From contig JANQPV010000052.1 in assembly GCA_028285305.1 (NCBI GenBank), positions 1-64,000 on the forward strand: 64,000 nucleotides of DNA. The letters are read 5' to 3'. Under the pieces are notes generated by a model that saw only the letters and a list, made by a program, of their open reading frames with translations, was not told the DNA's origin and did not search any database. Source of the stretch: Alphaproteobacteria bacterium (GTDB lineage Bacteria; Pseudomonadota; Alphaproteobacteria; SMXP01). Below, one piece after another: positions 18,891 to 60,371 of the stretch (within the stretch, counting starts at the first letter, position 1; every line of letters begins with the position of its first letter). The translations under genes were made by a program, and so were the position numbers.

Positions 18891-18892
18891 GA

Positions 18893-20083: not shown

Positions 20084-20098
20084 TGTTCGTCCAAATGA

Positions 20099-25376: not shown

Positions 25377-26285
25377 CTATCGCCTGGGCGTTTGAAGGTA
25401 CTCCATGATTGCGCACACAATAATCGCAATCATCAACGGTAGTGAGCCAATGAACATCAGTCTCCAGTCAGCTTCCATCTGCCCCGATACAAAGCTGAGC
25501 TGTAGACTCTCAAAACCGTGCGTCGCTTCGAAAGAGACAAAGCTCTCCAAAACTGATTTTCCTATCAGACTCAAAAGAGCCACATAGAAAGCTCTTCTCC
25601 AAAAAAAAGCGGGGTTGTGAATCAGGATAAATAAAAACATAGCCAACGCCACACCACCTGATGCAACGTAACGAGCGGCATTCGTCCAATCTGTCTCTGA
25701 TAAGCCAATCCAAACAATCACTCCCGACAAAGAAGCGCCAACCACGGATACAAGGAGCCACCCAGGTAAAGCGTTTTCCTCGGCAACCTGAGTCGCGTCC
25801 AACCGCTCTCGTTGCCTTGATGCCATCGCCACATGGAGGCCGTGGAGAAAGTCGGGGAACTCGCCGCACAACCGCCTGAAGAAGTCACCTCCTACTTGCA
25901 ATGCCAACGCCGTTTGGCTCTTGACACTGACTGTCGCAGATCTTTTCCTTCCAGGCTCTATCGCAGACATCTCTCCGACCTGGTCGGGCGCGGAACGCAT
26001 CGTTATTTTGCGCTTTCCTAATAGAATGTACGCTTCGCCGGTGAGCAGAAAGTACACATCATCACCTTGAGCGTTTTGTTCGATAATCCTCTCCCCCTTT
26101 CGAAACGTCACGATCTGGCCGCTGGCCATAAGACGTTTCACGATTTCCTCATCACCTCGTATGGCTTGGTTTTGTAACAGTGTGTTGCGAATGCGGTCCT
26201 GACCGTCACTGCCGGTAAATCCTTGAAGGGGGTCCGGCAGCGAATGACGGCCAAGAATGGCCCCTAGTTTCTTCGCCCAAGACAT
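25377..26285 (-). CDS. Cyclic-nucleotide-binding membrane effector (PycTM-like)
   Basis: 302 residues. A cNMP-binding domain (about 45-160) shows TFRKGERIIEQNAQGDDVYF and the phosphate-binding-cassette-like VGEMSAIEPGRKRSATV. It is followed by four hydrophobic segments (about 175-195, 208-230, 235-255 and 275-297). This is the architecture of Pycsar transmembrane effectors, which damage the membrane on binding cCMP or cUMP during phage infection. A class III cyclase gene sits 1 kb away, divergently. The gene overlaps the WYL regulator stop by 22 bases, so both are expressed together. Confidence 0.75.
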   Translation of the reverse strand: MSWAKKLGAILGRHSLPDPLQGFTGSDGQDRIRNTLLQNQAIRGDEEIVKRLMASGQIVTFRKGERIIEQNAQGDDVYFLLTGEAYILLGKRKITMRSAPDQVGEMSAIEPGRKRSATVSVKSQTALALQVGGDFFRRLCGEFPDFLHGLHVAMASRQRERLDATQVAEENALPGWLLVSVVGASLSGVIVWIGLSETDWTNAARYVASGGVALAMFLFILIHNPAFFWRRAFYVALLSLIGKSVLESFVSFEATHGFESLQLSFVSGQMEADWRLMFIGSLPLMIAIIVCAIMEYLQTPRR

Positions 26286-27142
26286 TTTTCGACTTCTTTC
26301 ATATTGGCAATTCTCAGATGGAAGCTGCTCTCATTTCGCATCGTATTTCCTTCTTGCACATGAGGATTAAAGCCATAGTGCCGGAGGTAGTAAAACAGCA
26401 TTGCCTGCCTGACCGTGAGACGAAGGCGACCGTCCTCCATCTGATACTCGTATTCTAATCGTCTCCTCTGTCGCCGATTCAGGGAGGGGTCTACCTTGAG
26501 TATGAATTCAACGTTCGTTTCCCAGACGACATCGCGAGGTGGGTCCTCGTCCGGGGTGTCAATTGGTTCAAGCGCTTCAATTCGCGAAAGGACAAAATCC
26601 GAGTATCTCCTCTTCTCGAAATCGAATGCCCGCATATGCCATCGATGACCATCGCAGGCTATTGCGTGCGGCATAAGAGTCCGAGATTCTCCCTGATCGG
26701 ATTTCAGTGAGACGTATCGGGACCTAAGACAGCCGTTCCTGTGGATCGCGTCGAGAACAGTTCTCAAAACGTTGGGCAGTATTTCCCTTGAATGTGCGGA
26801 AACTGCATCAAACTTCGGAATGGTATCGACCCAGATTTCGTTTTTCTGCCGATACCCCTGGTGCAGCATTTCCAGGTGCATCAGGTATTCCGATGCATGC
26901 CCTTTTGTCAGCATTGGTTGGAAAGATGCACTCCGAACATAAGACTTTCGCCTCGGGTCATAGATCATGTTGTCAGGGCAGGCATCCATGTAAGTGTTGA
27001 GGTCTTTCGTTGCCTGCTGCATCGAAATCGCAAATTGATCCTGCAACTTCTTTCTGCCGACCGAGCCCTCCCAAGCGAGTTGGAACTCAATGTACTCCAG
27101 CCTCCTGCGGATGGTCGTCTTTATGGTTTGAAAATGCTCCAT
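26264..27142 (-). CDS. WYL-domain transcriptional regulator (CapW/BrxR-like)
   Basis: About 292 residues. An N-terminal winged helix (RRRLEYIEFQLAWEGSVGRK, with QDQFAISMQQATKDL) precedes a WYL domain around HAIACDGHRWHMRAFDFEKR and a C-terminal WCX-like extension. Proteins of this form (CapW, BrxR) repress phage-defence operons until triggered. The start at 27142 is chosen because GGGAGGCAAG precedes it; an ATG at 27178 would fall inside the divergent promoter. It is cotranscribed with the membrane effector and faces the cyclase gene. Confidence 0.75.
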   Translation of the reverse strand: MEHFQTIKTTIRRRLEYIEFQLAWEGSVGRKKLQDQFAISMQQATKDLNTYMDACPDNMIYDPRRKSYVRSASFQPMLTKGHASEYLMHLEMLHQGYRQKNEIWVDTIPKFDAVSAHSREILPNVLRTVLDAIHRNGCLRSRYVSLKSDQGESRTLMPHAIACDGHRWHMRAFDFEKRRYSDFVLSRIEALEPIDTPDEDPPRDVVWETNVEFILKVDPSLNRRQRRRLEYEYQMEDGRLRLTVRQAMLFYYLRHYGFNPHVQEGNTMRNESSFHLRIANMKEVEKCLGRRN

Positions 27143-27165
27143 CTTGCCTCCCAGATTGCAATTCT

Positions 27166-27207
27166 CACTTTCTATCATGTTGACATATTAGCGGAAAGTG
27201 CTATTTT
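27166..27207 (+). promoter_or_regulatory. Cyclase promoter with overlapping inverted-repeat operator
   Basis: TTGACA (27180-27185), a 16-base spacer and TATTTT (27202-27207) form a good sigma70 promoter toward the cyclase. CACTTTC (27166-27172) and GAAAGTG (27194-27200) are inverted around the -35 box, a natural place for the divergent WYL regulator to bind. Confidence 0.5.
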
Positions 27208-27281
27208 ATAGGAGTATTGCGAGTCGGCCTGCGAGTTAGGCCCAAACGCATCACACCCAAAATACTTTGAAGGAGTTCGCC

Positions 27282-28883
27282 ATGGCTTGGCGGCATGAGA
27301 AGGCGCGGCAGCGTATCAGGCAGCTAATCGAAGAAGCGCCTCAGGTCGAGGTTCGCCGATTCGCGGACGAATATATGCCCAACTACGAGGCCCGCCGGGA
27401 AAGGCTTGTCGCCTCAGGGGAGCAAGTTTCACCGCCTCTGTTTGACCTTGGCAAGGGTAGTGCCGTTATGGTCGACACTGTCCAGATTTACATCCGCATA
27501 ACCAACTATGACGAATATCGCATTGAAGAGGGCCGAGAGACGCATGCATCGCATGAGCGCGCGTTAAGGTTTCTCCACCTTTATTACAGCGCATGTGATC
27601 GCGTCATTGAACAAACTTCGGCACAGCGGGTCGACTTTCATGGAAGTCGGATGCACGCGGTCGTTCTCGATCAGTTGGGCACCGGTGTAGACCAGCAGAA
27701 TATTGCTGAGGCTTTCGCATTTATTCGTGATTTTCGTGCGGTTGCCGAACTGGCGAACCAGGAGCTGGCCAATAGCGAGTTTACCGCGCGATTCAGAGTT
27801 GGTGTTGACGTGGGGCCTTGCGTAGCGATCAACAATGGTACGGGTCTCGAACAGGAGCCTATGTTTCTAGGAAGCTCTGCCAACCATGCGGCAAAGCTTG
27901 CCGAGGGCGAGCAGCCAGGCATATACATTTCTGATCGTGTGAGGGCCCTACTTAACTTGCCCGTCCTTGGAATCTTCGAGGGCATGCAAGATCTCGATGA
28001 ATCAGTGTTCGATCGGGTAATTGGCAGCCTGGAAACCCTTGTCGCACCGACGCCAGGATCGCTTGACCCCTTGGGCATACCTGAGGCGCTAGTTGAAGCC
28101 TGGAGGGGCGAAATAAGGGCGAATAGGGTGCCTGATCCCACCATGCCGAGATTTGTCTTCCATCACAAAGAGCCGCCGTTGAGTGGAATCGACTACGCCG
28201 AACTATCGCCAAGCAATTCAATCCGAATGACCCTTGTATCGTTGTTTGCCGACCTCTCAGGGTACACGGCCTTCATCGATGCCGCGATAAGGGCGGGCGG
28301 AATAGCTGAAGCTGTGCGCGCGCTCTATGTGATCCGCGAGGAGTTCCAGAATGTCGTCGAAGAGGATTTTGGTGGTCGAAAAGTCCGGTTCATCGGCGAC
28401 TGCATTCATGCGCTCCTGGCCGAAGGCACAAGAACCGAGACCGATGACCGATCTAGTGTCACCCAAGGCTTCCTATGCGCTGGAGGGCTGAGATCATCCT
28501 TCGGGATTTGCCAGAACGAACTGGCAAACATTACGTCGCTCGGCCTAGCGATCGGGGCGGAGCTTGGACCCACTCCAGTCTCTCGAATTGGAATCCGTGG
28601 TCAAAGGTCAGTTCGTCTGGCTTCGAGCGTTGCATCCGCAACATCAGAAAAGATGCAGCGTGATTGCAAAGATAACGAGACAAAATTTGGCCCCAATGCC
28701 CGGCGGATCATGCCCACTGCTTTGAATGACCTCACCGACGCACGCGGCGCGGCGCTCGGTCTGACCTACGACGATGTCAGCACAAGCCTTTCAGAAAATC
28801 AGGCCTACAAGCCTCCCGCGTACGTCCGGGAGCGCGTCACTGGAGAAAATACAGTTCCGAGGGCCCATTTCAGCAGGAAATGA
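27282..28883 (+). CDS. Class III nucleotide cyclase, Pycsar cyclase candidate
   Basis: About 533 residues with two cyclase-like domains. The N-terminal one (about 65-225) keeps fold signatures (GVDVGPCVAIN, FLGSSANHAAKLA) but lacks the first metal Asp, so it is probably inactive. The C-terminal one (from about 315) has both metal Asp residues, FADLSGYT and FIGDCIHAL, and GLAIGAELGP. In Pycsar, such enzymes make cCMP or cUMP on infection. ATG 27282 with AAGGAG is preferred to the upstream TTG. Its stop overlaps the next gene (ATGA). The neighbouring effector and WYL regulator support the defence role. Confidence 0.78.
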   Translation: MAWRHEKARQRIRQLIEEAPQVEVRRFADEYMPNYEARRERLVASGEQVSPPLFDLGKGSAVMVDTVQIYIRITNYDEYRIEEGRETHASHERALRFLHLYYSACDRVIEQTSAQRVDFHGSRMHAVVLDQLGTGVDQQNIAEAFAFIRDFRAVAELANQELANSEFTARFRVGVDVGPCVAINNGTGLEQEPMFLGSSANHAAKLAEGEQPGIYISDRVRALLNLPVLGIFEGMQDLDESVFDRVIGSLETLVAPTPGSLDPLGIPEALVEAWRGEIRANRVPDPTMPRFVFHHKEPPLSGIDYAELSPSNSIRMTLVSLFADLSGYTAFIDAAIRAGGIAEAVRALYVIREEFQNVVEEDFGGRKVRFIGDCIHALLAEGTRTETDDRSSVTQGFLCAGGLRSSFGICQNELANITSLGLAIGAELGPTPVSRIGIRGQRSVRLASSVASATSEKMQRDCKDNETKFGPNARRIMPTALNDLTDARGAALGLTYDDVSTSLSENQAYKPPAYVRERVTGENTVPRAHFSRK

Positions 28884-29674
28884 GTTCTCTAAGTCAATTG
28901 TATGATGCGCTGCCATCCTGGACCATAGTCGAAAGCAAAAATGCAAGTGTAATTGAAGTCAGGGCGACCGCACTGATGCCGAGTGGGGCGCCTGGGCGAG
29001 ACTACAGTCTCAAAATCAAGTCTGTTCCGACCAACTGTATAACGGTTTCCGAAGATCCAAAGCTCGCAAAACTCCCGAGGTGTTGCGTTGAACGCCACAT
29101 CAACCCAGACTCAACATTCTGCTTGCATTTCGATTCATCGAAACCGATCCGAAATATGGAGGCGGCTCAAAAATGGTGGAACAGCCTCCGGGCCTATTTG
29201 AATCATCAGGACTACGCCGAGAAGTGGCGAAGATGGCCAATCTATGCCCAATTGAGTCATGGAGGTGCTGCACCAATCCAAATAAAAATGGAGGAGTTGG
29301 CAGACCCCTTGGGGTGGAGAGACGAGCTACTTGCATCGGTGTTCCGGAACGACGGCTGGCTTGCTGGGCCGCTTCCACGTCTAACCAGAGACAAACGTGG
29401 GTTAGTAAATCGACGCTCGCCTTGTCCTCGCGGATGTCTCGTCTTGCATCATCCTTTATGCTCGCAGGCGTGCGCCCTAAAACGTTGCTTTGATGGGTGC
29501 AGAAAGCAACACAGACGCATCGTGCGGGCGGCTTGCCCGTATCGGTCGATAGTAGAAACGCTGGTCGTGTTGGAATCTCAAAGAAGGGCAAAGGAAGAGC
29601 AGGTCATCGCCGAACTTGTGGAGGAAGGTGTGGATTGTTGCGGGACGATGGAGAATTGTCCGCTATCAAATTGA
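28880..29674 (+). CDS. Possible E2-like protein coupled to the cyclase
   Basis: 264 residues. The first ~150 residues include RHINPDSTFCLHF and a WW...L..YL..Q..A..WRRWP stretch. That pattern resembles E2-like proteins of bacterial ubiquitin-type conjugation in defence loci, with the Cys of STFCLHF as candidate active site; this is from memory and uncertain. A Cys-rich segment follows (RRSPCPRGCLVLHHPLC, then further Cys to about residue 225), possibly a zinc site, and a helical tail. Its ATG overlaps the cyclase stop, so it belongs to the same unit. No E1 or JAB gene is visible. Confidence 0.5.
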   Translation: MSSLSQLYDALPSWTIVESKNASVIEVRATALMPSGAPGRDYSLKIKSVPTNCITVSEDPKLAKLPRCCVERHINPDSTFCLHFDSSKPIRNMEAAQKWWNSLRAYLNHQDYAEKWRRWPIYAQLSHGGAAPIQIKMEELADPLGWRDELLASVFRNDGWLAGPLPRLTRDKRGLVNRRSPCPRGCLVLHHPLCSQACALKRCFDGCRKQHRRIVRAACPYRSIVETLVVLESQRRAKEEQVIAELVEEGVDCCGTMENCPLSN

Positions 29675-32724: not shown

Positions 32725-32919
32725 TCACGATTGATCTCTTTCGATTTCTTGGCGCTGATCCCTGAATTTCTGCTGCAAAACCTCGGCACGGTGCATGAGC
32801 ATCTGGCACGGGCTAAGTTGCGCGGAGATCGGCTGATCTTTTTCGGCGCGGTCGCGTTCGGGCATAGTGGCAGCTTTGCGTTCAATGTGCTGTTTGATGC
32901 GCCTGGGCTTGTTTCTCAA
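32725..32919 (-). pseudogene. Charged helical remnant downstream of the integrase
   Basis: The minus-strand frame contains a polar, coding-like stretch (ATMPERDRAEKDQ, then SPCQMLMHRAEVLQQKFRDQ). A second piece (EWLEKQAQAHQTAH) in another frame lies immediately before it, inside the integrase end, as if a frameshift split one older gene. It could be the tail of a mobilisation protein. Weak evidence only. Confidence 0.3.
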
Positions 32920-34073
32920 GCCACTCGGTTGAACAACGCATTCCCAATCGAATTGGAGACCAGCGTGCCGGCCTCCCGAACAGGATCGTCAGCAAGGTGT
33001 GCATATCGCGCCGTGGTTTGGACTTGAGTATGACCGAGCAGCTTTCCGATCATGGGAAGTCCTTGGCCGAGAGCCAGTGCGCTTGAGGCATAGGTGTGCC
33101 GGAGATCGTGGATGCGAACATCGCCGAGCTTGGCGCGGGCTCTGATACGACGCCACGGCTTTTGTAGATCGGTCAGATATTGCCCTTCCTTGCGACCGGT
33201 GATGACATAGGGATTGTCGTCAAAACGGGGCAGGGCCTTGAGAACGGAGACGGCATCGTCGTTCAGGTAAACCGTCTTCTCTCCGGTCTTTGAATCGGGA
33301 AGGCGGATCACCTTGTCCTCAAGGTCAACGTAATCCCATTGAAGGGTCTGGATTTCTCCGAGGCGACAACCAGTCAAGATGAGAAGACGATAGGCGGCGA
33401 CAGCGGCAGTCGCCTCCTGTTCTTCTTCCTGCAAGGCTTTGCCCAGCCGCTTCAGCTCCTCGGCTGATAGGAACCGCTCCCGCTTCTCTTCCTTATACTT
33501 CTTGATATGCCGACAGGGACTGGAGCCTTCCTGCCTTAGACCCCAGACCTCGGCTTGATTGAACATCTTCGAAAGAACCCCCAAGGTTCTGTTGGCCTGA
33601 TAAGGGATATGGCGCAAACCATGATGTAGCTCTGCTATATTCCCGCCATCCACTTCCCATACTTTCATGGCCCCAAGCTTTGGAGTGATGAACAGCTCTA
33701 CCGATCTCTTGTATTCTCTCTGAGTGGACGGCTTCAGATGCGTCGGCACGTACTCCTCCAAGAACCGCTGTCCCAACTCTTTTATTGATGGCTGCCGGCG
33801 TCTGACCTTACGGATCACTCTCGGGTCTTCTCCATCCGCGATCCGACCGATCAGCTTCTTGGCCTTATCCCGTGCCTGGTAGTTGCTGATGACTTCACAG
33901 TCTCCGATAGGAAACCGTCTTTGAACGCCATTGATCCGCGTTTTCACGAAATAGGACTTCAAGCCCGACTTTCTGACCCGAACACCGAAGCCCTTCAGCC
34001 GATCGTCGCGGTACTCACGATCAACGCCATTACTCTTCAAGGACTCCACGAAGCGTTTGGTAATTCTCGGCAC
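32916..34073 (-). CDS. Tyrosine-type integrase of the tRNA-Met island
   Basis: 385 residues. The arm-binding N-terminal domain (DRLKGFGVRVRKSGLKSYF) and core-binding domain precede a complete catalytic set: Arg237 (TGCRLGEI), Lys262, His322 and Arg325 (HDLRHTYAS), His348 (LGHTQ) and Tyr357 (TARYAHL). It lies 180 bases from the right attachment copy at 34256, with GGGGACC repeats between them. It should catalyse insertion into and excision from the initiator tRNA-Met gene. No adjacent excisionase is obvious on the island side. Confidence 0.93.
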   Translation of the reverse strand: MPRITKRFVESLKSNGVDREYRDDRLKGFGVRVRKSGLKSYFVKTRINGVQRRFPIGDCEVISNYQARDKAKKLIGRIADGEDPRVIRKVRRRQPSIKELGQRFLEEYVPTHLKPSTQREYKRSVELFITPKLGAMKVWEVDGGNIAELHHGLRHIPYQANRTLGVLSKMFNQAEVWGLRQEGSSPCRHIKKYKEEKRERFLSAEELKRLGKALQEEEQEATAAVAAYRLLILTGCRLGEIQTLQWDYVDLEDKVIRLPDSKTGEKTVYLNDDAVSVLKALPRFDDNPYVITGRKEGQYLTDLQKPWRRIRARAKLGDVRIHDLRHTYASSALALGQGLPMIGKLLGHTQVQTTARYAHLADDPVREAGTLVSNSIGNALFNRVA

Positions 34074-42465: not shown

Positions 42466-43359
42466 ATGAAGCTACTGGATGCCGTTATTGTCGAGTTGCT
42501 CGAAAAAATAAGAGAGCGCGTAGATTCCGACTTGAGTTGGAAAGAGCTCGCGCTAAAGACAGATATTGATGCTAGTACTCTTTCTCGAATTCGTGCCGGA
42601 GTCAGGTCCGCCACATTTGACAATGTCGGTCAAATTATCAAAGCAGCTAATAATAACCGCCTTGGCGACGTTCAGCCCAAGGACGTTTGGAATCTATTTT
42701 CCCAAGTTTTGGCAACCCAAGCAGAAAAAAGAAAAGCAACTGACAGCTTTGTGGCACAGGGAATCGATTATCTTGAAGCCGTTACAAACCTAATTCCGAC
42801 TTTGTCCGAGGGCGACACATATGCTCTGATTACTATGGAGCCACCCTGGGAGATGACTGTTCCGGACTTTGAAGGCAGCGTAGTCGACGCATTAGACAGC
42901 AACGCGAGATTTGTCTATGTCGTTCCAGCGGCCAACATCGGTTCGGACGATGAACGGCCCATAGGTTTCGAAGCGCATTCTGTTGATGTTGATGGCGTTG
43001 CTTTGGATCAACGCCTAGCCCATTGGCGAGAGTCTCTTTTTCAGAGAAACCCGTCACTTGGAAAGTCAGAAACGAACAGCAATCTAAAGATAATAGCTGT
43101 CGATCGTTCAGACTTTATGTTCCTTTTTGCTCCTTCAATAAAATACGTGCATCTAGTTCGCAACAAAGGCAATCATGGTTACGAAGACCAGTTCAAAAAT
43201 ACCGTATCTATTGAAAGCAATCTGGTGAATAGTTTTGCGGAGATCTCTGCGGTTCAGTCAGCGTCAGACAATTTATCAGATCGCACCTTTGCTGAACTAA
43301 ACACCAGGACAATACGCCTCATTCATCGGTGGTTAGCCGAACTTGAGGCACAAGAATAG
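42466..43359 (+). CDS. HTH-domain protein, likely regulator of the queuosine cassette
   Basis: 297 residues. The N-terminal ~75 residues form a lambda-repressor-like HTH (SWKELALKTDIDASTLSRIR, then GVRSATFDNVGQIIKAA). The remaining ~220 residues are a separate domain with alternating strands and helices (EGDTYALITMEPPWEM, ARFVYVVPAANIG, LKIIAVDRSDFMFLF) that I do not recognise; it might sense a ligand. It is AT-rich compared with flanking DNA and lies nine bases before the transporter gene. TTGACA at 42351 is a candidate -35. Confidence 0.7.
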   Translation: MKLLDAVIVELLEKIRERVDSDLSWKELALKTDIDASTLSRIRAGVRSATFDNVGQIIKAANNNRLGDVQPKDVWNLFSQVLATQAEKRKATDSFVAQGIDYLEAVTNLIPTLSEGDTYALITMEPPWEMTVPDFEGSVVDALDSNARFVYVVPAANIGSDDERPIGFEAHSVDVDGVALDQRLAHWRESLFQRNPSLGKSETNSNLKIIAVDRSDFMFLFAPSIKYVHLVRNKGNHGYEDQFKNTVSIESNLVNSFAEISAVQSASDNLSDRTFAELNTRTIRLIHRWLAELEAQE

Positions 43360-43368
43360 GGTGAGAGA

Positions 43369-44010
43369 GTGAAAAATATGGGTACGATAGGTCCACGGGT
43401 TTTTGTGCTAAGCTGCTTGTTTATTGCGTCGCTTAGTGTTTTGAACATAGTTTCTTCAAAGATCGTGGCTCTTGGCGGCCTCACATTTTCTGTTGGCTCC
43501 TACCTATACGCCGTAACCTTTCCAATTACAGATGCTATTTCAGAGGTGAAGGGTAAGGCTTTCGCGCGTCGTCTTGTACTCTATGGATTTGCTGTGAACA
43601 TATTTGTGATTGGTGTGGTGGCGTTTTCCGCCTGGCACCCACCAGCACCTTTTTGGGGCGAACAGAATAAAGCGTTTCAAGCAACTCTTTATGCAGCGCC
43701 ACGTATTATGGTCGCCTCAATGATAGCCTATTTAGTTGCCCAGTTTCATGACATTTGGGCATTCCATTTTTGGAAAGCTGTCACTAAAGGTAAGTTTCTC
43801 TGGCTGCGAAATAATTTGTCCACTTTCACGTCGCAAATTGTGGATACGTCAATTTTTACTGTTCTTGCCTTTGCGGGAACAATGCCGATTTCTGGGTTAG
43901 TTTCGGTCGCTATGGGTGGTGTCATAGTCAAGATTGTATTGGCGCTTATTGATACACCTGTAGTTTATGCAACCGTTGCCTGGCTTCGCTCCGAGCACAA
44001 GCAGATTTGA
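43369..44010 (+). CDS. yhhQ: VUT/YhhQ-family queuosine-precursor transporter
   Basis: 213 residues with six or so membrane segments. Family marks are SSKIVALGGLTFSVGSYLYA, FPITDAISEVKGKAFAR and the late NNLSTFTSQIVDTSIFTVLA with its conserved polar residues. YhhQ proteins import preQ0, preQ1 or queuine. The GTG at 43369 or ATG at 43378 are both possible starts. Its stop overlaps the next gene (TTGA), which encodes a queuosine salvage enzyme, so the functional assignment is well supported by context. Confidence 0.85.
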   Translation: MKNMGTIGPRVFVLSCLFIASLSVLNIVSSKIVALGGLTFSVGSYLYAVTFPITDAISEVKGKAFARRLVLYGFAVNIFVIGVVAFSAWHPPAPFWGEQNKAFQATLYAAPRIMVASMIAYLVAQFHDIWAFHFWKAVTKGKFLWLRNNLSTFTSQIVDTSIFTVLAFAGTMPISGLVSVAMGGVIVKIVLALIDTPVVYATVAWLRSEHKQI

Positions 44011-45002
44011 CCACCTTGCAGACCCAGAGCAATCCTTGCCAACTCGTGGTGAAAAGCTGCCTTGGAGCTCTCCCGCAGCTAAGACATATTAATCTTCTGT
44101 ATGATCAGCTGCCTGCGGCGATAGAGAGCATCGACCTATCATCATATGCTCTGTCCTCTTCGATTAACCCTGACCGCAGTGGTGTCCCTTCAGATTGCCG
44201 CTACCTTTTTGTGTTGCTTTGTTGCGCATTGGATTTTGGTTCCAAGTATCAACATAGCGAACTGCGGTCGCGTAGCGGCTCTTTAACGAAAACTATTCAG
44301 TATAAGCTGGCCCCCTTGTTTAAGGGTATGAGAGAGAAAGATATATGTGAGAAATTATATGAGATTAATGCATGCGACTTTGCAGGACTGTTTATCGAGA
44401 AAGAGGCTCTTTATAAAGATGACTCAAATGGCCTTCGGCTCATTGAGCTTATGGAGGATAGAAAAAAAGCACTCAATGAAGTAATTAACTTTCTTCACCA
44501 GTTCGAATACAAAACTCTCAACTTGATTGAGGCAACAAACTTCGACTGTCTTCGCTTGGCCTCATTACTAAGCAGTGTCTCCAATTTTAGTGATGTTGAC
44601 CAGTATCAGGGAAAAACCATTTTCTTTTTTAAGAAGGCCCAACTCACATCGGCAATGCTTGCTGCAGCTGGAGCTCCAATTGGCGGGCGAGAATACTTAT
44701 CGGGTCTTGCTGACAATGGCGTTCCGGCGACATTGTTGAATCTGAAGGTCATGATGGTTGATGATCGAACAGAAAGAGAGATCAATGAACGAAGGCTCTT
44801 GCCGGTTGGTGGAGGAGTAGGGACAGAGATTCGAATCGCCACGATCTGCGCTGTGGATGCTTTGACGAAACTGGCGAATAAGCGCAACTTAACACTTTGT
44901 TCTCTTGATATCGACAAGGCACTTTGGAACCTTGCCCCAAGACCGTCACGGCCGACTTCGGCGGTCATGAGACCAATTATCGATACACGCTGGTTTTTCT
45001 AA
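44007..45002 (+). CDS. Queuosine salvage protein (DUF2419/Qng1-like)
   Basis: 331 residues. It resembles DUF2419: CALDFGSKYQHSELRSRSGS, YQGKTIFFFKKAQLTSAML and YLSGLADNGVPATLL. The Asp of LADNGVP aligns with the catalytic Asp of queuine-nucleoside glycosidases. It ends with GVGTEIRIATICAVDAL. The family frees queuine from queuosine nucleotides or nucleosides. The TTG start overlaps the transporter's TGA. The final ~25 residues meet the minus-strand HTH gene tail to tail. Confidence 0.72.
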   Translation: MTTLQTQSNPCQLVVKSCLGALPQLRHINLLYDQLPAAIESIDLSSYALSSSINPDRSGVPSDCRYLFVLLCCALDFGSKYQHSELRSRSGSLTKTIQYKLAPLFKGMREKDICEKLYEINACDFAGLFIEKEALYKDDSNGLRLIELMEDRKKALNEVINFLHQFEYKTLNLIEATNFDCLRLASLLSSVSNFSDVDQYQGKTIFFFKKAQLTSAMLAAAGAPIGGREYLSGLADNGVPATLLNLKVMMVDDRTEREINERRLLPVGGGVGTEIRIATICAVDALTKLANKRNLTLCSLDIDKALWNLAPRPSRPTSAVMRPIIDTRWFF

Positions 45003-45436: not shown

Positions 45437-45716
45437 GGATTGCGGCCTCCTCCTCTCATTTCATGTGGCCGCGATGAGACAGACCGCTTGCCGGAATCGG
45501 ATAGCTTCGGTTTGTAGACGATGCGTTTGCATGTTTGAAGCGACCCGATGGGCCGCATTTATGGGTTGGGGCGCCTTACCTTAGGCCCCAAACATGCTTT
45601 CTTTGAGGGACTACTATTCCGCAAATAAAAAGAGGGGAGGATCGGATATCCGAGTGAAAATATATAATGAATCTAAGTATATATTCTGTAATTAGAGCGT
45701 AATTATTTTAAACACT

Positions 45717-46379
45717 ATGGCGAATTCTGTTCATATCAAGAAAGAAGTGTCAATATATTTTCGGGGGTGCAGGCGGGAGAAAGATATCGGCGTGCACACT
45801 CTCTACGATCAGCGCGGCCATCGAAAGTATCTGATCGGCAGCGAACGAGCGGCGTTTTTGAAGGCCGCGAAGGCGGCAGACCCTACGACCGAGACCTTTT
45901 GCCTTGTGCTCGCGTACACCGGCGCGCGCATCTCCGAGGTTCTGGCACTGACGCCTGATCGTATCGACCCGGGCTCCTGCGTCATCATGTTCGAAACGCT
46001 CAAACGCCGCAGAAAAGGGGCGTTCCGGGCGGTTCCGGTGCCGCGGAAAGTGCTGAAGCGCATAGCCACGGTTCATGGCCTCGCCGGCTTGGCATACATG
46101 ACGGAGGGCGCATCCATCGAACGGTTGTGGCCATGGTGCCGCACGACGGCTTGGCAGCGGGTTAAGGCGGTCATGAACGAAGCGGGTGTCACGGGCACGC
46201 AGGCGTCTCCCAAAGGGTTGCGCCACGCATTTGGCGTTCTCGGGCTGCAGTCGGGTGTACCGCTCAATTTGGTGAGCCGCTGGCTTGGTCATGCCAAGCT
46301 TGAGACGACCGCCATTTACGCCGAAGCAATAGGTGAAGAAGAAAAGGCCATCGCTCAAAGGTTTTGGAGAACCTTTTGA
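45717..46379 (+). CDS. Short tyrosine recombinase
   Basis: 220 residues and only a small N-terminal part ahead of the catalytic domain. Catalytic residues are visible: Arg in TGARISEVL, Lys in KRRRKGAF, PKGLRHAFG (His normally in the HxxR box is replaced by Lys-Gly-Leu-Arg-His order), LGHAKLETT and the Tyr in AIYAEAIG. It resembles XerD-like plasmid or element resolvases. The leader (45600-45716) is very AT-rich and may hold its site. It may have mobilised the queuosine cassette. Confidence 0.8.
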   Translation: MANSVHIKKEVSIYFRGCRREKDIGVHTLYDQRGHRKYLIGSERAAFLKAAKAADPTTETFCLVLAYTGARISEVLALTPDRIDPGSCVIMFETLKRRRKGAFRAVPVPRKVLKRIATVHGLAGLAYMTEGASIERLWPWCRTTAWQRVKAVMNEAGVTGTQASPKGLRHAFGVLGLQSGVPLNLVSRWLGHAKLETTAIYAEAIGEEEKAIAQRFWRTF

Positions 46380-46569
46380 GTAATGGAGGCCAGCCCCGTG
46401 AACAGAATTCGCCATTCTGTTTATGCTTACAGTGGGATGGATTTGATGGCACGCACCGCGCTCGTTCGCGTTGTCACTGCTAGCATGAGGAGGCCGCGCC
46501 AGCCGGGCGGACAAAGGCCCCCTTTCTGCGGCGGAAGCGTGTAAATAGACCATATGGGGAAGATCAGAT

Positions 46570-52446: not shown

Positions 52447-52478
52447 GGGACGGCCAGCGTATCTATGCCAGCCGTCCC
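52447..52478 (-). terminator. Hairpin downstream of the AlpA gene
   Basis: GGGACGGC (52447-52454) and GCCGTCCC (52471-52478) form the stem. On the minus strand CCC is followed by TTTCG. A moderate terminator candidate 26 bases after the AlpA stop. Confidence 0.45.
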
Positions 52479-52503
52479 CGCATCCCCTTTCGGGGAGTAG
52501 TGC

Positions 52504-52680
52504 TTATCGTTGGTCGAGTTTCTCTTGAAGCCAGCCCTCGACCTCTTCCAGCAGCCAGCCCACCCGACATTGGCCAAGCCTCACGCGACGCGGAAACTTG
52601 TCCGCTGCCTCAAGTCTGGCGATGTGCTGGCGAGAGTAAGGAACCATCTCCTTGAGAACCTTCCAGTCGATAATCTTCAT
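52504..52680 (-). CDS. AlpA-type small regulator (prophage/island HTH)
   Basis: 58 residues from ATG 52680: IIDWKVLKEMVPYSRQHIAR, LEAADKFPRRVRLGQCRVGW and a WLLEEVEGWLQEKL end. This is the AlpA/excisionase-like fold that drives integrase or excision in islands. The order AlpA next to an integrase 3' end is normal; here that integrase is a wreck (52756-53005). The gene itself is complete. Confidence 0.85.
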   Translation of the reverse strand: MKIIDWKVLKEMVPYSRQHIARLEAADKFPRRVRLGQCRVGWLLEEVEGWLQEKLDQR

Positions 52681-52755
52681 CACGATACTCCCGTGTGAGG
52701 GAGCATCGCGACGCCCGGTTGCAATTAAACCTAGGCGAGCAAAAAGATATCAGTT

Positions 52756-53005
52756 TTCTAGGAGCTTCGAAAGATAGCTGTTGTACGCGTCGATGGCCTC
52801 CCGCATTTCTGCTTGGTAGTCGTACCGGTTATACACGGCAGCGATGCCGCTGACTTACTCTGATACTAGGAGGGCGACGATGTGGCCAAACGGTTAGGAG
52901 GTAGCAAGGGTCTTGGTAAAGACCTCTTTTGGATTCCTCGGGCGCCAGTATGCGATTGCTGTTCTGAGCCTTCGTTGGTGCCTTGAGTGCGGCAGCGGCG
53001 ACGTT
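52756..53005 (-). pseudogene. Shredded integrase, paralogue of the 59054 integrase
   Basis: Bases 52756 to about 52855 align with 59067-59166, the C-terminal coding end of the intact integrase, at roughly five matches in six. Bases 52867 to 53005 then align with 59552 onward, so about 385 internal bases are deleted. The reading frame is broken. This is the former integrase of the element to its left, now replaced in position by the newer cluster on the right. Confidence 0.75.
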
Positions 53006-53281: not shown

Positions 53282-54244
53282 ATGTCTGGAGCAATGGCGG
53301 GCACCGCCCTGCTCTCCGCACCGTATGTCGAATTTGAGCTAGATACGGTCGTCCTGACCGTCAACAACGACTGTAATCTTAAGTGCCCACACTGCTACCT
53401 GCAGTACACGCCAGCGGGGACAGAGACGATTATTCCTCAGGAAGTTATTGACGCGGTTCTGTCGTCATCCTGCCGGCACATTTGCATCGCAGGAAAAGAG
53501 CCGCTGGCCAATGCCCGATCCCGGGACATCGTGGAGGCCATCATCCTTGAGGCAAGCAAGCGGAACATATCGACTAGCCTGATCACAAACGGACTTCAGT
53601 TGCACAAACTCTCCTCAACAACTGTAAGCCAATTGTCCTGGGTCGATGTCAGTCTCGACGGCGGGCCTGCCACATACGGATCGTACCGCGGCGCAAGCTT
53701 CAATCAAGTGATGTCAAACATCCGTCGAGTCAGAACCTGTTCTGGCACTTCAGTTCGGATACTCAATACAATCTCTCATGAGAATCTAGAGCACATACCA
53801 GACATGGTTGATGTATTTCGCTTTGCAAACATCGACTTGATGCAGTTTTCGCCCTTTCAGGAAACGAAATCTCAGGGCGAGCAGTATACCACCATGGTCA
53901 GACCGGAAACGTTTTTCGAGGCATTTTCAGATCTGAAAGTGGAGCCTGCAGATAGGATTGTTCTAGCCATTGATGCTCAATACGTAGCGAAATGCAATGC
54001 GCTCCCTCACGATATTGAATTGTTAGTGCGAAATTCCTCCAAGTACAGGATAGATTACACAAAAGAAGATCCCCTAATTAGGGGATTTATTAGAATTACC
54101 TATGATGGTCTAGTTCTTTCTCCTATTGATTCTTTAAATACGAAATACTATAGTTGTATCGGATCTGATTTAGGAAAAACTAGAATTGAGGAGCATTATA
54201 ATAAACTCATTTCAGACAGAGATTATGATGCTTTAGTCGCATAA
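53282..54244 (+). CDS. Radical SAM protein of unknown substrate
   Basis: 320 residues. GGAGGAG precedes the ATG. The cluster motif CNLKCPHC (CxxxCxxC) is near residue 33, with IAGKEPLANAR (the GGEP-like motif, degenerate) near 77 and VDVSLDGG near 122. The C-terminal region ends with RITYDGLVLSPID...YYSCIGSDLG, like a SPASM end stripped of all but one Cys. This points to a peptide- or small-molecule-modifying enzyme. DNA becomes AT-rich toward the 3' end. It lies two bases before the ABC ATPase gene, so it heads an operon. Confidence 0.85.
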   Translation: MSGAMAGTALLSAPYVEFELDTVVLTVNNDCNLKCPHCYLQYTPAGTETIIPQEVIDAVLSSSCRHICIAGKEPLANARSRDIVEAIILEASKRNISTSLITNGLQLHKLSSTTVSQLSWVDVSLDGGPATYGSYRGASFNQVMSNIRRVRTCSGTSVRILNTISHENLEHIPDMVDVFRFANIDLMQFSPFQETKSQGEQYTTMVRPETFFEAFSDLKVEPADRIVLAIDAQYVAKCNALPHDIELLVRNSSKYRIDYTKEDPLIRGFIRITYDGLVLSPIDSLNTKYYSCIGSDLGKTRIEEHYNKLISDRDYDALVA

Positions 54245-54246
54245 AC

Positions 54247-54873
54247 ATGGAGACTAATAAATATATAGTTAATATTGAGGAGATGGATTTTGGGTATAAT
54301 GATCTAAAGGTTTTTTCTTCTTTTTCGTTTTACTCAGAAAGTCGCGTAACGATCCTTAAGGGGCCGTCCGGTTGCGGAAAGACCACGTTGGTCAAGCTGT
54401 TATCTGGGGTGCTCGTTCCCCGGCACGTCAAAACCCTAAACGTTCCCAAAGAATCGACCGTGATCCTACAAAGTGATTCTCTGGCGCCGTGGCTAACAGG
54501 GTGGCAGAACTTACTCTATTTTGCGTGCACGGATCCGGATGACGTCCGACAGCACTCGCTTTTTCCGCTTATCGAAGCGTTTGTCGACCAGCTCGCGTGT
54601 CAGATGTCGTTTGGCCAGAGAAGAACTCTAGAGTTGGTACGGGCGTTTCTAGGCAGGCGCCACTTTCTCCTGCTCGATGAGCCTCTGAATTATCTCGATC
54701 GACCCCGAAGGAACCGCATTATTGAATACCTATCAGAACAGCTGCCGAAAACTGTTCGCGTTGTTCTCACCACACATTTGGATGGCGAAGAAGCGATAGC
54801 CGATTCAGATTGTTTTGAGTTTTTTGGCGAGCCGCCTCACGAAGGGCTTAACTTAGCAAAGAGAAGCATATGA
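54247..54873 (+). CDS. ABC transporter ATPase, NitT/TauT type
   Basis: 208 residues, short for the family. Walker A is GPSGCGKTT near residue 39, the Q-loop is VILQSDSLAPWLTGWQNL, the signature is degenerate MSFGQRR, Walker B is FLLLDEPLNYLD and the switch His is in LTTHLDGEE. The APWL after the Q-loop is typical of SsuB/TauB-like importers. It overlaps the permease start (ATGA). It powers import with the permease and binding protein that follow. Confidence 0.88.
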   Translation: METNKYIVNIEEMDFGYNDLKVFSSFSFYSESRVTILKGPSGCGKTTLVKLLSGVLVPRHVKTLNVPKESTVILQSDSLAPWLTGWQNLLYFACTDPDDVRQHSLFPLIEAFVDQLACQMSFGQRRTLELVRAFLGRRHFLLLDEPLNYLDRPRRNRIIEYLSEQLPKTVRVVLTTHLDGEEAIADSDCFEFFGEPPHEGLNLAKRSI

Positions 54874-55607
54874 CGTGGCGCGTGGTAGCTAGAGTAGTAT
54901 CTGCATTGCTGTTGGTACTCATTTGGCTTGGCGTTAAGGAGCTTTTCTCAGTTCCGGATCGCTACTTGCCGTCGCTTTGGATGGTGGCTGAGGCGGTTGC
55001 TGACGTCGGTCCCGACCTCCTTTTGCACGCTGGAGCTACCAGTGTTCGGGTCGTTGCGGGGTTCCTAGGCGGCGTCCTTTTGGGAGTCGTTGCTTGCCTA
55101 GTCGCCTACCGATTCGGGGCGCTGAACTTTTTAATGCCCTCGATCAATGCGCTAAGAGCGGTGCCACCCGTCGCGCTTCTTCCGTTCTTCTTGCTGTGGT
55201 TCGGATTCACCGAGGTCGGACGTATAGTCCTTTTGCTGGTGGGACTTGGCGTAAATGTGTTCGTAGCGTCGGCCGAGGTTGTCGGGAACCCGAGTGAATC
55301 GGACAGAATCCTGTTTCGGTCGTTTCCTGTGCGGCCAGCAGGGCTTGCATGGTACTTTTGGTTGCCAAGAATCTTGGAGTCGTTACTGCCGACCTTGCGT
55401 TTTGGTCTCTCAATGCTGATAGGCCTAGTCGTAATTGCGGAAATGTTGGGGGCTCAATCAGGGTTAGGGTATCTAATACAAACTTCGAGATCCACGTTCT
55501 CGTTGGACGTTATTCTTCTATCTAGTGCTTTACTTGGATTTATTACTATTGTTTCGGACAGAGTTTTGCAGATCTTGTGGCGCCATGTTACATTTTGGAA
55601 GACATAA
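54870..55607 (+). CDS. ABC transporter permease, NitT/TauT type
   Basis: 245 residues with six membrane segments. The coupling-loop pattern ALRAVPPVALLPFFLLWFGF and the following GLGVNVFVASAEVV match SsuC/TauC-like permeases. It overlaps the ATPase gene and lies two bases before the binding protein gene. It would form the channel for a small organic solute. Confidence 0.9.
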   Translation: MTWRVVARVVSALLLVLIWLGVKELFSVPDRYLPSLWMVAEAVADVGPDLLLHAGATSVRVVAGFLGGVLLGVVACLVAYRFGALNFLMPSINALRAVPPVALLPFFLLWFGFTEVGRIVLLLVGLGVNVFVASAEVVGNPSESDRILFRSFPVRPAGLAWYFWLPRILESLLPTLRFGLSMLIGLVVIAEMLGAQSGLGYLIQTSRSTFSLDVILLSSALLGFITIVSDRVLQILWRHVTFWKT

Positions 55608-55609
55608 CC

Positions 55610-56665
55610 ATGAAATCCCAACGTAGAATAATTTATTTCATTCTCGGCATTGCCGCAATTCTTGTGGTTGGTTCGATTGTTGCCTCTGTGACAACAGAGA
55701 GTGACGGTCCAGATCAGCCGCTCCGCGTCGCGATCTCTCCGTATCAAGACATTGCGATGCTGGTAAATGTCGACCATCTCGGACTCGAACAGAAGTACGG
55801 AACAGAAATTGAACTCGTGACGCTGGGTTGGGAGGAGATACTCCCCGCAGTCGCGAGTGCAGGGCCTGGGGTTGACGTCGGATTTGGTGGTTACATCGAG
55901 TACCTTACTAAGTATGAGAACATAAATGCGGGTTCGTCAGACCCGGTACTATTTATCTATCCGCTATACGTGTTTAAGGGCGGTGCATTTGTCACGTTTG
56001 ACGATGAAGTGCCTGAACTCAATCGAACGAATATTCAGGATAGCCCCGTCGTTCAAGAATTCCTGTCGTATCGCTTTGGTGCACAACAGTATTCTGTCTA
56101 CGAAATGATGCTAGCCCATATCGCAGGGTTGGCGGGAGTTCCCTTTGATTCGCTAAACGTGGTTGACACCCCGCTTGATCAAGGGTTTCTGGCAGCCCGT
56201 GCTGGCAGCATCGACATTGCCGAAGCCGGCCTTACCCAACTTACAGAGACAATACGAATGGGGGGCCGCAGCGTGGTCACTATGGAGGACATTGGATTTG
56301 CCGACCTAACTGGCTTCATTGTTAAGAAGAGCGTCTATGAGGCGCGAAAAGGCGACGTCCACAATTTGGTCCGTATGTGGTTCGACAGCGTCGATTATGT
56401 ATTCGCTGATATAGATCAGAATTCCCAGGTCAGCCGTGATTATCTGACTCGAACGGCGTCAACGCGTTACTCACTAGACGAGTACAAGAGCGCTCTGTCG
56501 CAAGAGTACCTACCGCGTACGCTTTCGGAGGCTAATTCTGCGTTTCTCAATCAGAACGGGCCCTATTCGTACGAGAGGATTGGCCGGACCGTCGCAGATT
56601 ACTTGATGAGGAGAGGCATCGTCTCAGCGCCACCTGTGCTTCCAAAGATCGAGAAAATTGAGTGA
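55610..56665 (+). CDS. Membrane-anchored solute-binding protein of the ABC importer
   Basis: 351 residues. One N-terminal hydrophobic helix (about 7-27) without a lipobox suggests an uncleaved anchor. The periplasmic domain starts LRVAISPYQDIAMLV and has LGLEQKYGTEIELVTLGW and a GPGVDVGFGGY loop, the NMT1/TauA-like ligand-binding fold. The family binds taurine, nitrate, thiamin precursors and similar solutes. ATG 55610 is chosen over an earlier start inside the permease gene. Confidence 0.82.
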   Translation: MKSQRRIIYFILGIAAILVVGSIVASVTTESDGPDQPLRVAISPYQDIAMLVNVDHLGLEQKYGTEIELVTLGWEEILPAVASAGPGVDVGFGGYIEYLTKYENINAGSSDPVLFIYPLYVFKGGAFVTFDDEVPELNRTNIQDSPVVQEFLSYRFGAQQYSVYEMMLAHIAGLAGVPFDSLNVVDTPLDQGFLAARAGSIDIAEAGLTQLTETIRMGGRSVVTMEDIGFADLTGFIVKKSVYEARKGDVHNLVRMWFDSVDYVFADIDQNSQVSRDYLTRTASTRYSLDEYKSALSQEYLPRTLSEANSAFLNQNGPYSYERIGRTVADYLMRRGIVSAPPVLPKIEKIE

Positions 56666-56742
56666 GTCGGTGACCTATGGGTATCAGACCTCGCTGAATG
56701 CGTAACAATCTCAAACCAGTATTTATCTTGCGCGGAAAGTGA

Positions 56743-57768
56743 ATGACCTCCCCTAGCGATGCTCTCCAGGCCCTCGGTTCAGACATCGGGAAATGGGTGT
56801 TTCACTACCCGGTGTACATAAACACTTTTTGCCTAGCCTACCACTTGGCAGAGCTGCTTGATGGACGGGTAGAGAACATGAGACACTATCTTGTTCCACA
56901 TGATTGGAGTCAGGGGATCCCACATTTTCTACACACAGCGGATGTGGAGTTTTTTATTGCGACAGAGCCGATGATCGAAGAAGTCCGAGAGCAAACTAAT
57001 TGCGTGGAAGGTCGTGAATTCACCAAGTACAGAGTCGGTAGCATATTTGTAAACCGAGCAAGATTAAAACGAACACTCGATCATGAATTGTCGGATATCC
57101 AGGATATTGAAAGCTTAGAAGCTCTGGTTCGCCTACTATTAAGTATTAGAAACATAAAAGATCTTATAGTCATTACAGACGTCCCTCAATCGGCTCGATT
57201 ATTTGCAGAGGAGTTAGAAAAACTATTTGCAAAATTTTCAACGTCAGGAAGCTCGGTAAAGAATATTACTATCCGTATCAGAGGGTACTGGCAAAGGGAC
57301 ATGACCGACCTCTTTGAGCGAATTATCCCCAAGATTTACCTCTTTAGCGCGCCCATAGCAGCCATATTTGAAGATCGCAGGGCACGTTACATACCCATCG
57401 ACATTGATAAGTCTGTTCCCAACATACCCACGTTTGTTGCTGCACGATATGCGGCCGACATTGAAGACATTGAGGTCCAGAAGATGCTGGACTGTATTGA
57501 AACATACTACAAGAATCTCTTCGATGCAGCAGCCGATGCTGTCCGCTGCAACAGCGTCCCTAAATGGGCAAAAAACCTGAGCTGCTACTATGGCCGGCAT
57601 GCGGAATCCTCTAGGCAGATGAATCCATTTTCGCAATTTGGCGCTTTACTCTCGGACGATGGGCATCCAACCAATGTCAAAGCTAGAGATCTCGAATATC
57701 TGAAGATACTTGATCGGCACCATGGTCGCCTAGCTGATGTTGGAAACACTGCACAAGATCAGCTGTAG
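56743..57768 (+). CDS. Unknown 341-residue protein of the radical SAM cluster
   Basis: I do not recognise it. It lacks a signal peptide. Around residues 55-120 the phrasing HFLHTADVEFFIATEPMIEE recalls periplasmic-binding folds, so a cytoplasmic ligand-binding domain is possible. The remainder is mixed alpha/beta (IKDLIVITDVPQSARLFAEE; DFERIIPKIYLFSAPIAAIF-like stretch). AT-rich like its neighbours. It follows the importer by 77 bases on the same strand and may sense the imported compound. Confidence 0.65.
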   Translation: MTSPSDALQALGSDIGKWVFHYPVYINTFCLAYHLAELLDGRVENMRHYLVPHDWSQGIPHFLHTADVEFFIATEPMIEEVREQTNCVEGREFTKYRVGSIFVNRARLKRTLDHELSDIQDIESLEALVRLLLSIRNIKDLIVITDVPQSARLFAEELEKLFAKFSTSGSSVKNITIRIRGYWQRDMTDLFERIIPKIYLFSAPIAAIFEDRRARYIPIDIDKSVPNIPTFVAARYAADIEDIEVQKMLDCIETYYKNLFDAAADAVRCNSVPKWAKNLSCYYGRHAESSRQMNPFSQFGALLSDDGHPTNVKARDLEYLKILDRHHGRLADVGNTAQDQL

Positions 57769-57779
57769 CGTCGTATGCC

Positions 57780-58907
57780 ATGACAAGTTCTCCGACACCA
57801 AAAATGCACGAGCTGTGCCAATCTGCTTGTGGTCTAAAAAAGAGAATAAAGGAGATCTTTTTCAGTCATGCGAGAAAAGAAAATAGTAGGGAGGCTATAG
57901 AAAATACCGAGAGTTTTATTTCACATTTTACCACCTTAGATGGATTTATGAAAATCTGTAAATCCTCTCTCTGTAAAAGTAAGAAGAAAATGCCCGAAGG
58001 TCTAAGGCTATTTCTTTCGGATACCACGTACCTAAACGATCCCTTTGAAGGTGACGCCCTGTATGAGTATTTGGATTCGGTACCCGATAGGAGCGCCGAA
58101 CATCAAAGAGAGCGGAATTCTATACGCGAAGAGTTCTCGCCACTGGAGTTCCATCAAAAACAGGATTCCTACTCTCTGAATAGAAGTGAAGCAGACGAGA
58201 TCCTGGACTTTCTAGAACGCCTTGGCGTCAAAGGGACAGCGGCCAAAAGCAATGGGAATACCGCTATAAATGAACGAATTTTCGTCTGCTCTTTTACGTC
58301 TCGGGATGACTACCTAGACCTTTGGAGAGCCTACGGTAACGATGGGAATGGTGTGTGCCTCTCAATGAAGGCTGGCGAAAGCATCAAACGACTAGAGAAT
58401 TACGGCGAGCCGCCGCGCAATCCCGACTATCAACTCTATCGCGTTGCATACGACAACGCCGAGAAGGCTCGTACATGGCTACAACTCCTACCGCGTATCC
58501 GCGAAATCGTCAGACTGGTGAAAGATGATCAGGGCCTCGACTGGAGCAATGTTCAGGCAGAAATTTTGTCGGATTTGACGATGCTTAGTCATCTGTACAA
58601 ACATGAACAGTACAGTTCAGAGGGTGAGGTTCGCCTGATTAGAAAAGCCCATATTGCGGACTCGAATGTCCTATTCAAATCCAAAAACAAAAAAACGCCG
58701 GAACATCTTCACGTAGATGTAACAGGAAATAGAGTCTTCAGCTATTCTCCGCCATTCTTTTTTGGGAACAGCGTCAACAGTAGACTGATCATCGGCCCAA
58801 AGGTCCCCGACGGAAAGAGACTGAGAGTTACGCTCTCTGCATATCTTAAGACCCTCTGGCCAAAAAAAACACCACGGGTGGAACTGTCGACCGTTCCCTA
58901 CCAATGA
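57780..58907 (+). CDS. DUF2971 family protein
   Basis: 375 residues. DUF2971 features are FLSDTTYLNDPFEGD, FVCSFTSRDDYLDLWRAYGN, GVCLSMKAGE and the late EGEVRLIRKAH. The fold is unassigned in function and often occurs in mobile DNA, including defence regions. The first ~45 residues are basic. It lies 11 bases after the unknown gene and closes the cluster. The 5' coding part is strongly AT-rich, indicating transfer. Confidence 0.78.
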   Translation: MTSSPTPKMHELCQSACGLKKRIKEIFFSHARKENSREAIENTESFISHFTTLDGFMKICKSSLCKSKKKMPEGLRLFLSDTTYLNDPFEGDALYEYLDSVPDRSAEHQRERNSIREEFSPLEFHQKQDSYSLNRSEADEILDFLERLGVKGTAAKSNGNTAINERIFVCSFTSRDDYLDLWRAYGNDGNGVCLSMKAGESIKRLENYGEPPRNPDYQLYRVAYDNAEKARTWLQLLPRIREIVRLVKDDQGLDWSNVQAEILSDLTMLSHLYKHEQYSSEGEVRLIRKAHIADSNVLFKSKNKKTPEHLHVDVTGNRVFSYSPPFFFGNSVNSRLIIGPKVPDGKRLRVTLSAYLKTLWPKKTPRVELSTVPYQ

Positions 58908-59053: not shown

Positions 59054-60196
59054 CTAAGGACCGCTCTCCAGGAGCTTCAAGAGGTAATTGTTATACGCGT
59101 CAGTGGCTTCCCGCATCTCTGCCTGGTAGTCGTACCGGTTATAGACGGCAGCGATGCCGCTGACTTGCCCCGACACGTGATTGAGATGCTTTTCGGTGAT
59201 GTGAATGGGGACGCCCAGCATGGCGAGCGTGGAGCTAAATGTGCGCCTGAGATCATGAAGCGTATAGGGATTCACGTTCTCTAGCGTTTCGTCGAACGCC
59301 TTCTTCGCTTTTCCCCAGCCGTTGAATACGCTGGTTTCTTTGCCTCGCACATGATCCCGGCTTGCAGGAAAGATGAACTCACTTTGCTTGCACTCGGGAG
59401 GGATGCTCTCAAGGACGCGCCGCGCAAGCATACCGATGGGAAAGCGATGTTCGACACCGTTCTTGGCGATATCGCTGGGAATGGTAATGGTGTCATGCTC
59501 GACATATTCCCATTTGAGCGAGGCGATTTCTCCGCGTCGCTGGCCTGTCAGAGCCAGCAGGGCGACGATGTGACCGTAAGGATAGGCGGTACTAAGGGCT
59601 TTGCCGAGAACCTCTTTGAGTTCATCGGGAGTCAACACGCGATTGCGGCTTTGTGATCTGGTCGTTGCTTTGAGGGCAGTGAGCGGCGACATGTTGATCA
59701 GCCCTTGGCCTGCGCACCAAGAGAAGAACACCTTGACCGCCACTAGCGCATGCGCACGCTCGGAGGGCGCGTCGATCTTTTCGAGCTCGTGGACCACGGC
59801 GGCTTTTGTGATTGTGCCGATCTTCTGCGCTCCGAAGGGAAAGTGCTTGATGAGGCGTTTGTAGTCGTTAACCGTGCGCGGCCGGTTCTTCTCTTCACAC
59901 GCCTTGAGCCATTTGTCCTTGGCCGTATTGAACGACACGGAGGGCGCTTGGTAGGTGCCGAGTGTCTTTTCGGAAAGGATGCGCCGTGCTTCCGTTCGGG
60001 CATCTTTGAGCTTAATGGCCGGGTAGCGTCCGATCTTGTGACGCTTCCCGCTGTTCACGAGGACGATGAACGTGCGAGCGCCCCCCGGCGAGAGGCGAAT
60101 ACCCAGCCCCTTACAGCTCCCGTCCCAGTGTGTGACGGTGCCACTTTCAGGAAGCGGGAAACGCTTGATCGCGATATCGGTCAGATTTTTTGGCAC
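59054..60196 (-). CDS. P4-type tyrosine integrase
   Basis: 380 residues. The N-terminal arm-binding domain of DUF4102 type (KRFPLPESGTVTHWDGSCKG, LGIRLSPGGARTFI) is followed by a full catalytic set: Arg220 (TGQRRGEI), Lys245, His314 and Arg317 (HDLRRTFS), His340 and Tyr352 (VYNRYDY). It lies 116 bases from a tRNA-Phe 3' fragment, its likely attachment site. Its paralogue lies dead at 52756-53005. Confidence 0.93.
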   Translation of the reverse strand: MPKNLTDIAIKRFPLPESGTVTHWDGSCKGLGIRLSPGGARTFIVLVNSGKRHKIGRYPAIKLKDARTEARRILSEKTLGTYQAPSVSFNTAKDKWLKACEEKNRPRTVNDYKRLIKHFPFGAQKIGTITKAAVVHELEKIDAPSERAHALVAVKVFFSWCAGQGLINMSPLTALKATTRSQSRNRVLTPDELKEVLGKALSTAYPYGHIVALLALTGQRRGEIASLKWEYVEHDTITIPSDIAKNGVEHRFPIGMLARRVLESIPPECKQSEFIFPASRDHVRGKETSVFNGWGKAKKAFDETLENVNPYTLHDLRRTFSSTLAMLGVPIHITEKHLNHVSGQVSGIAAVYNRYDYQAEMREATDAYNNYLLKLLESGP

Positions 60197-60312: not shown

Positions 60313-60371
60313 GACACGCGGATTTCTGACTGAAAATCCGCGTGTCGGTGGTTCGATTCCGCCCCTGGAAT
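60313..60371 (+). other. Attachment-site scar: 3' part of tRNA-Phe
   Basis: From about 60329 the sequence follows tRNA-Phe: anticodon loop ACTGAAAA, GTGTCGGTGGTTCGATTCC T-arm and CCCCTGG of the acceptor stem. The 5' half is missing. The anticodon stem is extended to a perfect 13-base inverted repeat (60313-60325 with 60334-60346). It is next to the 59054 integrase. I could not find the matching copy inside the window. Confidence 0.7.

Follow-up and report, generated by a model that had tools for sequence, protein, structure and literature searches.

A radical SAM gene in one operon with a NitT/TauT-type importer on a tRNA-Phe island of an alphaproteobacterium: a possible import-and-transform module

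Radical SAM (rSAM) enzymes far outnumber their known functions, and the partners with which they share an operon are the best clue to their substrates. A 64,000-nucleotide stretch of alphaproteobacterial DNA (hereafter the window) raises the question of what such an enzyme does when its gene is followed by those of a complete ABC importer with its solute-binding protein (SBP). A complete importer and SBP in one operon offer a direct route to a ligand: whatever the SBP binds would be the leading candidate for the enzyme's substrate. A preliminary description of the window had proposed that six genes form one operon which could import, modify and sense one compound or, given its mobile surroundings and a DUF2971 gene, serve in conflict. 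The ORF list of the window confirms six ORFs at 53282-58907, all on the + strand:

53282-54244, + strand: radical SAM enzyme, 320 aa (Pfam PF04055, 48.5 bits; alignments)
54247-54873, + strand: ABC importer ATPase, 208 aa (PF00005, ABC_tran, 58.2 bits; motifs in the translation)
54870-55607, + strand: NitT/TauT-type permease, 245 aa, with a 4-base overlap with the ATPase gene (PF00528, BPD_transp_1, 49.3 bits)
55610-56665, + strand: SBP, 351 aa, with an N-terminal hydrophobic anchor or signal (SsuA_fam, E 5.6e-5; homologous SBPs L006/L007)
56743-57768, + strand: 341-aa protein of no family, its membership of the module uncertain (no family match)
57780-58907, + strand: DUF2971 protein, 375 aa (PF11185, 42.7 bits; PADLOC PDC-S31, E 2e-9)

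All four Pfam domains that define the enzyme, the ATPase, the permease and the DUF2971 protein score above their cut-offs. The intergenic gaps along the run are 2, -4, 2, 77 and 11 bases. The rSAM, ATPase, permease and SBP genes (gaps 2, -4 and 2; SBP start codon ATG at 55610) are its tight core, and the genes for the 341-aa and DUF2971 proteins are a looser part that starts 77 bases after the SBP gene. The view of all six as one operon therefore has good support in the first four genes and less in the last two, because of the 77-base gap and because neither is present at the related locus L037 described below. In composition the six genes have a GC3 of 0.47-0.56, compared with 0.58-0.75 in most other measured genes of the window; the nearby integrase, at 0.69, lies well above them, and low GC3 is also found in queuosine-salvage genes at 42-45 kb.

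The placement in mobile DNA was borne out by an integrase remnant, an intact integrase and a tRNA-Phe attachment site around these genes:

52504-52680, - strand: 58-aa AlpA-like regulator or excisionase, named by eye from its translation, beside the integrase remnant
52757-52929, - strand: decayed remnant of a related integrase, left of the cargo (identity to the intact integrase)
59054-60196, - strand: intact tyrosine integrase, right edge of the cargo (PF00589, 63.7 bits; Arm-DNA-bind_3)
60328-60368, + strand: attachment site, the 3' part of tRNA-Phe (GAA) (match to tRNA-Phe)

The remnant matches the intact integrase in the same order over 110 nt at 85% (59067-59176) and 62 nt at 74% (59556-59617). 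With the remnant on the left and the intact gene on the right, two integrases, one decayed and one intact, thus flank the cargo, the arrangement to be expected of islands that accumulate in tandem at one tRNA. The attachment site is 100% identical over 41 bases to an intact tRNA-Phe on G000:C64 and matches a second partial copy there over 40 bases; no such copy was found between the integrase remnant and the cargo. Rfam matches near 52460-52713 and 53019 fell below the gathering thresholds and were set aside. The presence of several integrases in the window suggests stacked islands. A further gene for a tyrosine integrase (32916-34073; 385 aa) lies upstream of a type IIG restriction enzyme identified by PADLOC, and 25-nt inverted repeats (92% complementary, 45709-46423) flank a 220-aa phage-type integrase at 45717-46379. 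The latter adjoins a low-GC queuosine-salvage cassette (42466-45002) 8 kb from the rSAM operon, whose genes encode a 297-aa HTH protein, a transporter of Vut_1/YhhQ type (164 bits) and a protein matching Q_salvage (76.6 bits). We considered a link between this cassette and the rSAM operon and rejected it: the salvage protein is dissimilar to both the 341-aa and the DUF2971 proteins, and the cassette is a separate one.

The enzyme itself belongs to the radical SAM superfamily, with a PF04055 score well over the cut-off of 29.5 bits and a CX3CX2C motif at C31/C35/C38 whose cysteines are invariant across 33 aligned rows. Residues 71-73 read GKE in place of the GGE motif, with G71 and E73 retained, and the same GKE occurs in the L037 enzyme; the rSAMs fetched for comparison mostly carry GGE, the other departures being GAE, one GRE and one GCE. 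Since GGE is no strict requirement for the superfamily, GKE does not exclude membership. The C-terminus had been described as a reduced SPASM domain, a view that the alignment of the window, L037 and L071 enzymes contradicts: C-terminal auxiliary-cluster (SPASM/twitch) cysteines are absent. Because only the three cysteines of CX3CX2C are conserved with these two closest relatives, we see no sign of an auxiliary cluster. An AlphaFold2 model (pLDDT 73) is confident in its core and poor at residues 249-265 and 283-320; its best Foldseek matches are BlsE, SuiB, MoaA and viperin, led by BlsE (7vob; TM 0.60, 17% identity), the cytosylglucuronate decarboxylase of an antibiotic pathway. As far as the model goes, these fold matches do not discriminate between substrates. 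Viperin shares with the enzyme the lack of an auxiliary cluster, a profile similarity and the fold match, but we rejected this identity: the enzyme scores 47.8 bits against the NF038283 cut-off of 180, has no nucleotide kinase beside it and adjoins an importer. The PADLOC models of prokaryotic viperins (pVip) match it weakly (52 bits), and the PapB, AhbC and NirJ models score alike.

The importer is complete and, judged by its sequence, belongs to the NitT/TauT superfamily. The ATPase motifs are intact (Walker A GPSGCGKTT, signature MSFGQ, Walker B LLLDEP, H-loop TTH). The permease matches the NCBIfam models TauC (65.1 bits, cut-off 342) and SsuC (65.0 bits, cut-off 347) at E 7e-18. Among the importer proteins the matches to NtrB (28.7 against 209) and SsuA (22.5 against 163.5) likewise remain below their cut-offs. 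SsuA_fam is the one NCBIfam match of the SBP, a weak one (22.5 bits), and the protein aligns with a separate SBP at z=16 (hhalign E 2e-6). An ortholog search for the SBP in plasmids, viral contigs and phylum, class and order samples returned only the generic SBPs L006/L007. With every equivalog score far below its curated cut-off, a taurine, sulfonate or nitrate importer was rejected, as was a SaoP/organometal reading of the permease (50 bits, cut-off 295). The operon thus shares a superfamily with TauABC, SsuABC and NrtABCD through its permease and SBP and, unlike those loci, has no oxygenase, desulfonase or nitrate reductase. The preliminary description had named one outcome that would speak against it, an importer belonging to a known pathway for a vitamin or a sulfonate; these scores did not give that outcome. 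No NMT1-family match turned up in the host genome, and therefore the island appears to bring its own uptake system.

Conservation of the gene neighbourhood, proposed earlier as a check, was examined with a scan for the rSAM over 84,980 species genomes, which matched at least 586 stretches and at least 80 loci. The best rSAM among the matches listed (E 4e-17) is that of L037, from a Verrucomicrobia MAG; it aligns end to end (residues 1-318), shares CNL[KR]CxHCYLQ as well as GKE with the window enzyme, and is the only one among the matches listed to combine end-to-end alignment with GKE. Its gene is third in a run of six tight genes encoding a 410-aa protein, an ATPase, the rSAM, an SBP_bac_5 protein and two permeases; judged by eye, the gene after this run looks like an IS21-type transposase. 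The pairing of rSAM and importer therefore recurs, with a different importer: that of L037 is a Dpp/Nik-type ABC system unrelated to the one in the window, and neither the permeases (z -0.6, -0.4) nor the SBPs (z -0.3) of the two loci show detectable similarity. Since these components are dissimilar, rSAM and importer genes seem to have been brought together twice, not handed down as a single operon, and importers whose specificity classes differ make a poor fit with the same substrate for both. As background we took 51 fetched rSAM loci from the matches listed, each with at least 3 kb on either side; by tblastn with two known importers as queries, a search that very divergent importers may escape, an ABC importer gene lay within 1.5 kb of the rSAM gene in one of the 51 (L037) and in none of the 50 comparison loci. 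An importer beside the L037 enzyme and none at the comparison loci makes the link recurrent, at two loci. In the tree the window, L037 and L071 enzymes group together (96/81), and the window and L037 enzymes, both on long branches, form a pair (95/67); L071, the third member of the family, has no ABC neighbour. Samples of 289 genomes from the L037 phylum, 141 L037 relatives and 329 genomes from the window's own phylum yielded no members of the clade beyond the two founders, from which we take the clade to be rare and scattered. The 410-aa protein heading the L037 importer operon (L037:5892-7121) belongs to no known family, has no plasmid homologs, and shows no similarity to the 341-aa protein, the DUF2971 protein or the island's 297-aa HTH protein.

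The two downstream genes fit this picture less well. Searches of Pfam, NCBIfam, PADLOC and PHROGs gave no family for the 341-aa protein, and it has no homologs in 298 other genomes of its phylum, in class and order samples, in plasmids, or in viral and genome contigs. It had been thought to hint at a cytoplasmic binding fold and so to sense the compound; this idea gained no support, as the protein shows no similarity to the SBP beyond that of shuffled sequences (z=-0.2), and a structure model built from the single sequence (pLDDT 37) is not interpretable. Membership of DUF2971 is clear for the last protein (PF11185 cut-off 22 bits), which matches PDC-S31, a candidate phage-defence model, and has a relative, by a weak match, in a streptococcal satellite phage. 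Because the related L037 locus lacks it, the DUF2971 gene is probably separate island cargo.

Taken together, the two loci suggest a real and so far undescribed partnership of rSAM enzyme and importer, and a search of the open-access literature found nothing on this combination. Our tentative explanation, to which we would give a little less than an even chance, is a horizontally acquired module for import and transformation. The extracytoplasmic SBP would capture a small molecule, which the NitT/TauT-type ATPase and permease would carry into the cell. There the rSAM enzyme, predicted to hold a single SAM-binding [4Fe-4S] cluster without an auxiliary one, would generate a 5'-deoxyadenosyl radical that may cleave or rearrange the imported substrate, and the product could become usable by the cell in salvage or catabolism. 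Importing and modifying are thus the parts of the earlier proposal that we retain: a distantly related rSAM lies independently in an operon with a complete, unrelated ABC importer, and we infer that the enzyme acts on the imported compound. The wider proposition is more doubtful: an auxiliary-cluster-free clade with GKE, repeatedly recruited beside unrelated ABC importers and spreadable by mobile islands, might represent an undescribed pathway of uptake and radical conversion.

Known systems offer partial precedents. In the C-P lyase system a small molecule enters through the PhnCDE ABC importer and is cleaved by the rSAM PhnJ, a pairing like that in the window. The importer and the rSAM, however, are of other families, and the operon has no other Phn-like genes: Pfam and NCBIfam gave no match to a Phn enzyme (PhnG-M, PhnJ) among its proteins, the only Phn match shown being to the generic ATPase model PhnT2, far below its cut-off. 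Queuine lyase, too, is a radical SAM enzyme. It has been described for queuosine salvage (PMC7694415). That pathway is a precedent for a salvaged compound being processed enzymatically after uptake, but none of the family models shown for the window operon matches it.

Three other explanations compete with an import-and-transform module. Mobile islands collect unrelated cargo, the queuosine-salvage operon being one example, and co-oriented genes gathered between two integrases could have come together by coincidence; the looser last two genes agree with this, but the first four overlap or lie 2 bases apart and the nearest rSAM relative among the matches listed sits in an independent importer operon, so we regard coincidence as unlikely. 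The importer might instead supply a precursor or metal while the enzyme produces a cofactor or modifies a macromolecule, be it the 341-aa protein or a different one. Related rSAMs beside different importer classes would suit such a role, and peptide or protein maturases are numerous among the relatives of the rSAM core. Against it, a by-eye reading of small frames in three intergenic stretches gave no clear RiPP precursor-like candidate, auxiliary-cluster cysteines are absent, unlike in most SPASM maturases, and the 341-aa protein is not found at L037; this too we hold to be improbable.

The conflict role raised in the preliminary description would have importer, rSAM and DUF2971 act in defence or in competition between elements, for instance through a modified metabolite with DUF2971 as effector. 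This role is tied to DUF2971 and its match to PDC-S31; the tandem integrase setting, a type IIG restriction enzyme elsewhere in the window, the DUF2971 relative in a satellite phage and the weak similarity of the rSAM to pVip models also speak for it. That similarity is generic, however, and the viperin cut-off is missed by far; DUF2971 is absent from L037; and to our knowledge no binding-protein-dependent importer is a component of any known defence system. We consider this explanation the least probable, and prefer to read the operon as a module for import and transformation.

Elsewhere in the window, a row of - strand genes at 16500-21655 encodes three proteins: one of 796 aa whose C-terminal domain is class II aldolase/adducin, one of 396 aa without a family and one of 518 aa that has a PEP-utilising mobile domain. 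Next to this row, at 15830-16519, lies a RelA/SpoT-domain protein. At 27267-29674 a nucleotide-cyclase-domain protein is directly followed by a prokaryotic E2 protein (E2-ntca and E2-Crich), with a cNMP-binding protein (25377-26285) and a WYL protein (26264-27178) nearby. With these neighbours the region resembles a conflict system of cyclic-nucleotide and ubiquitin-like type.
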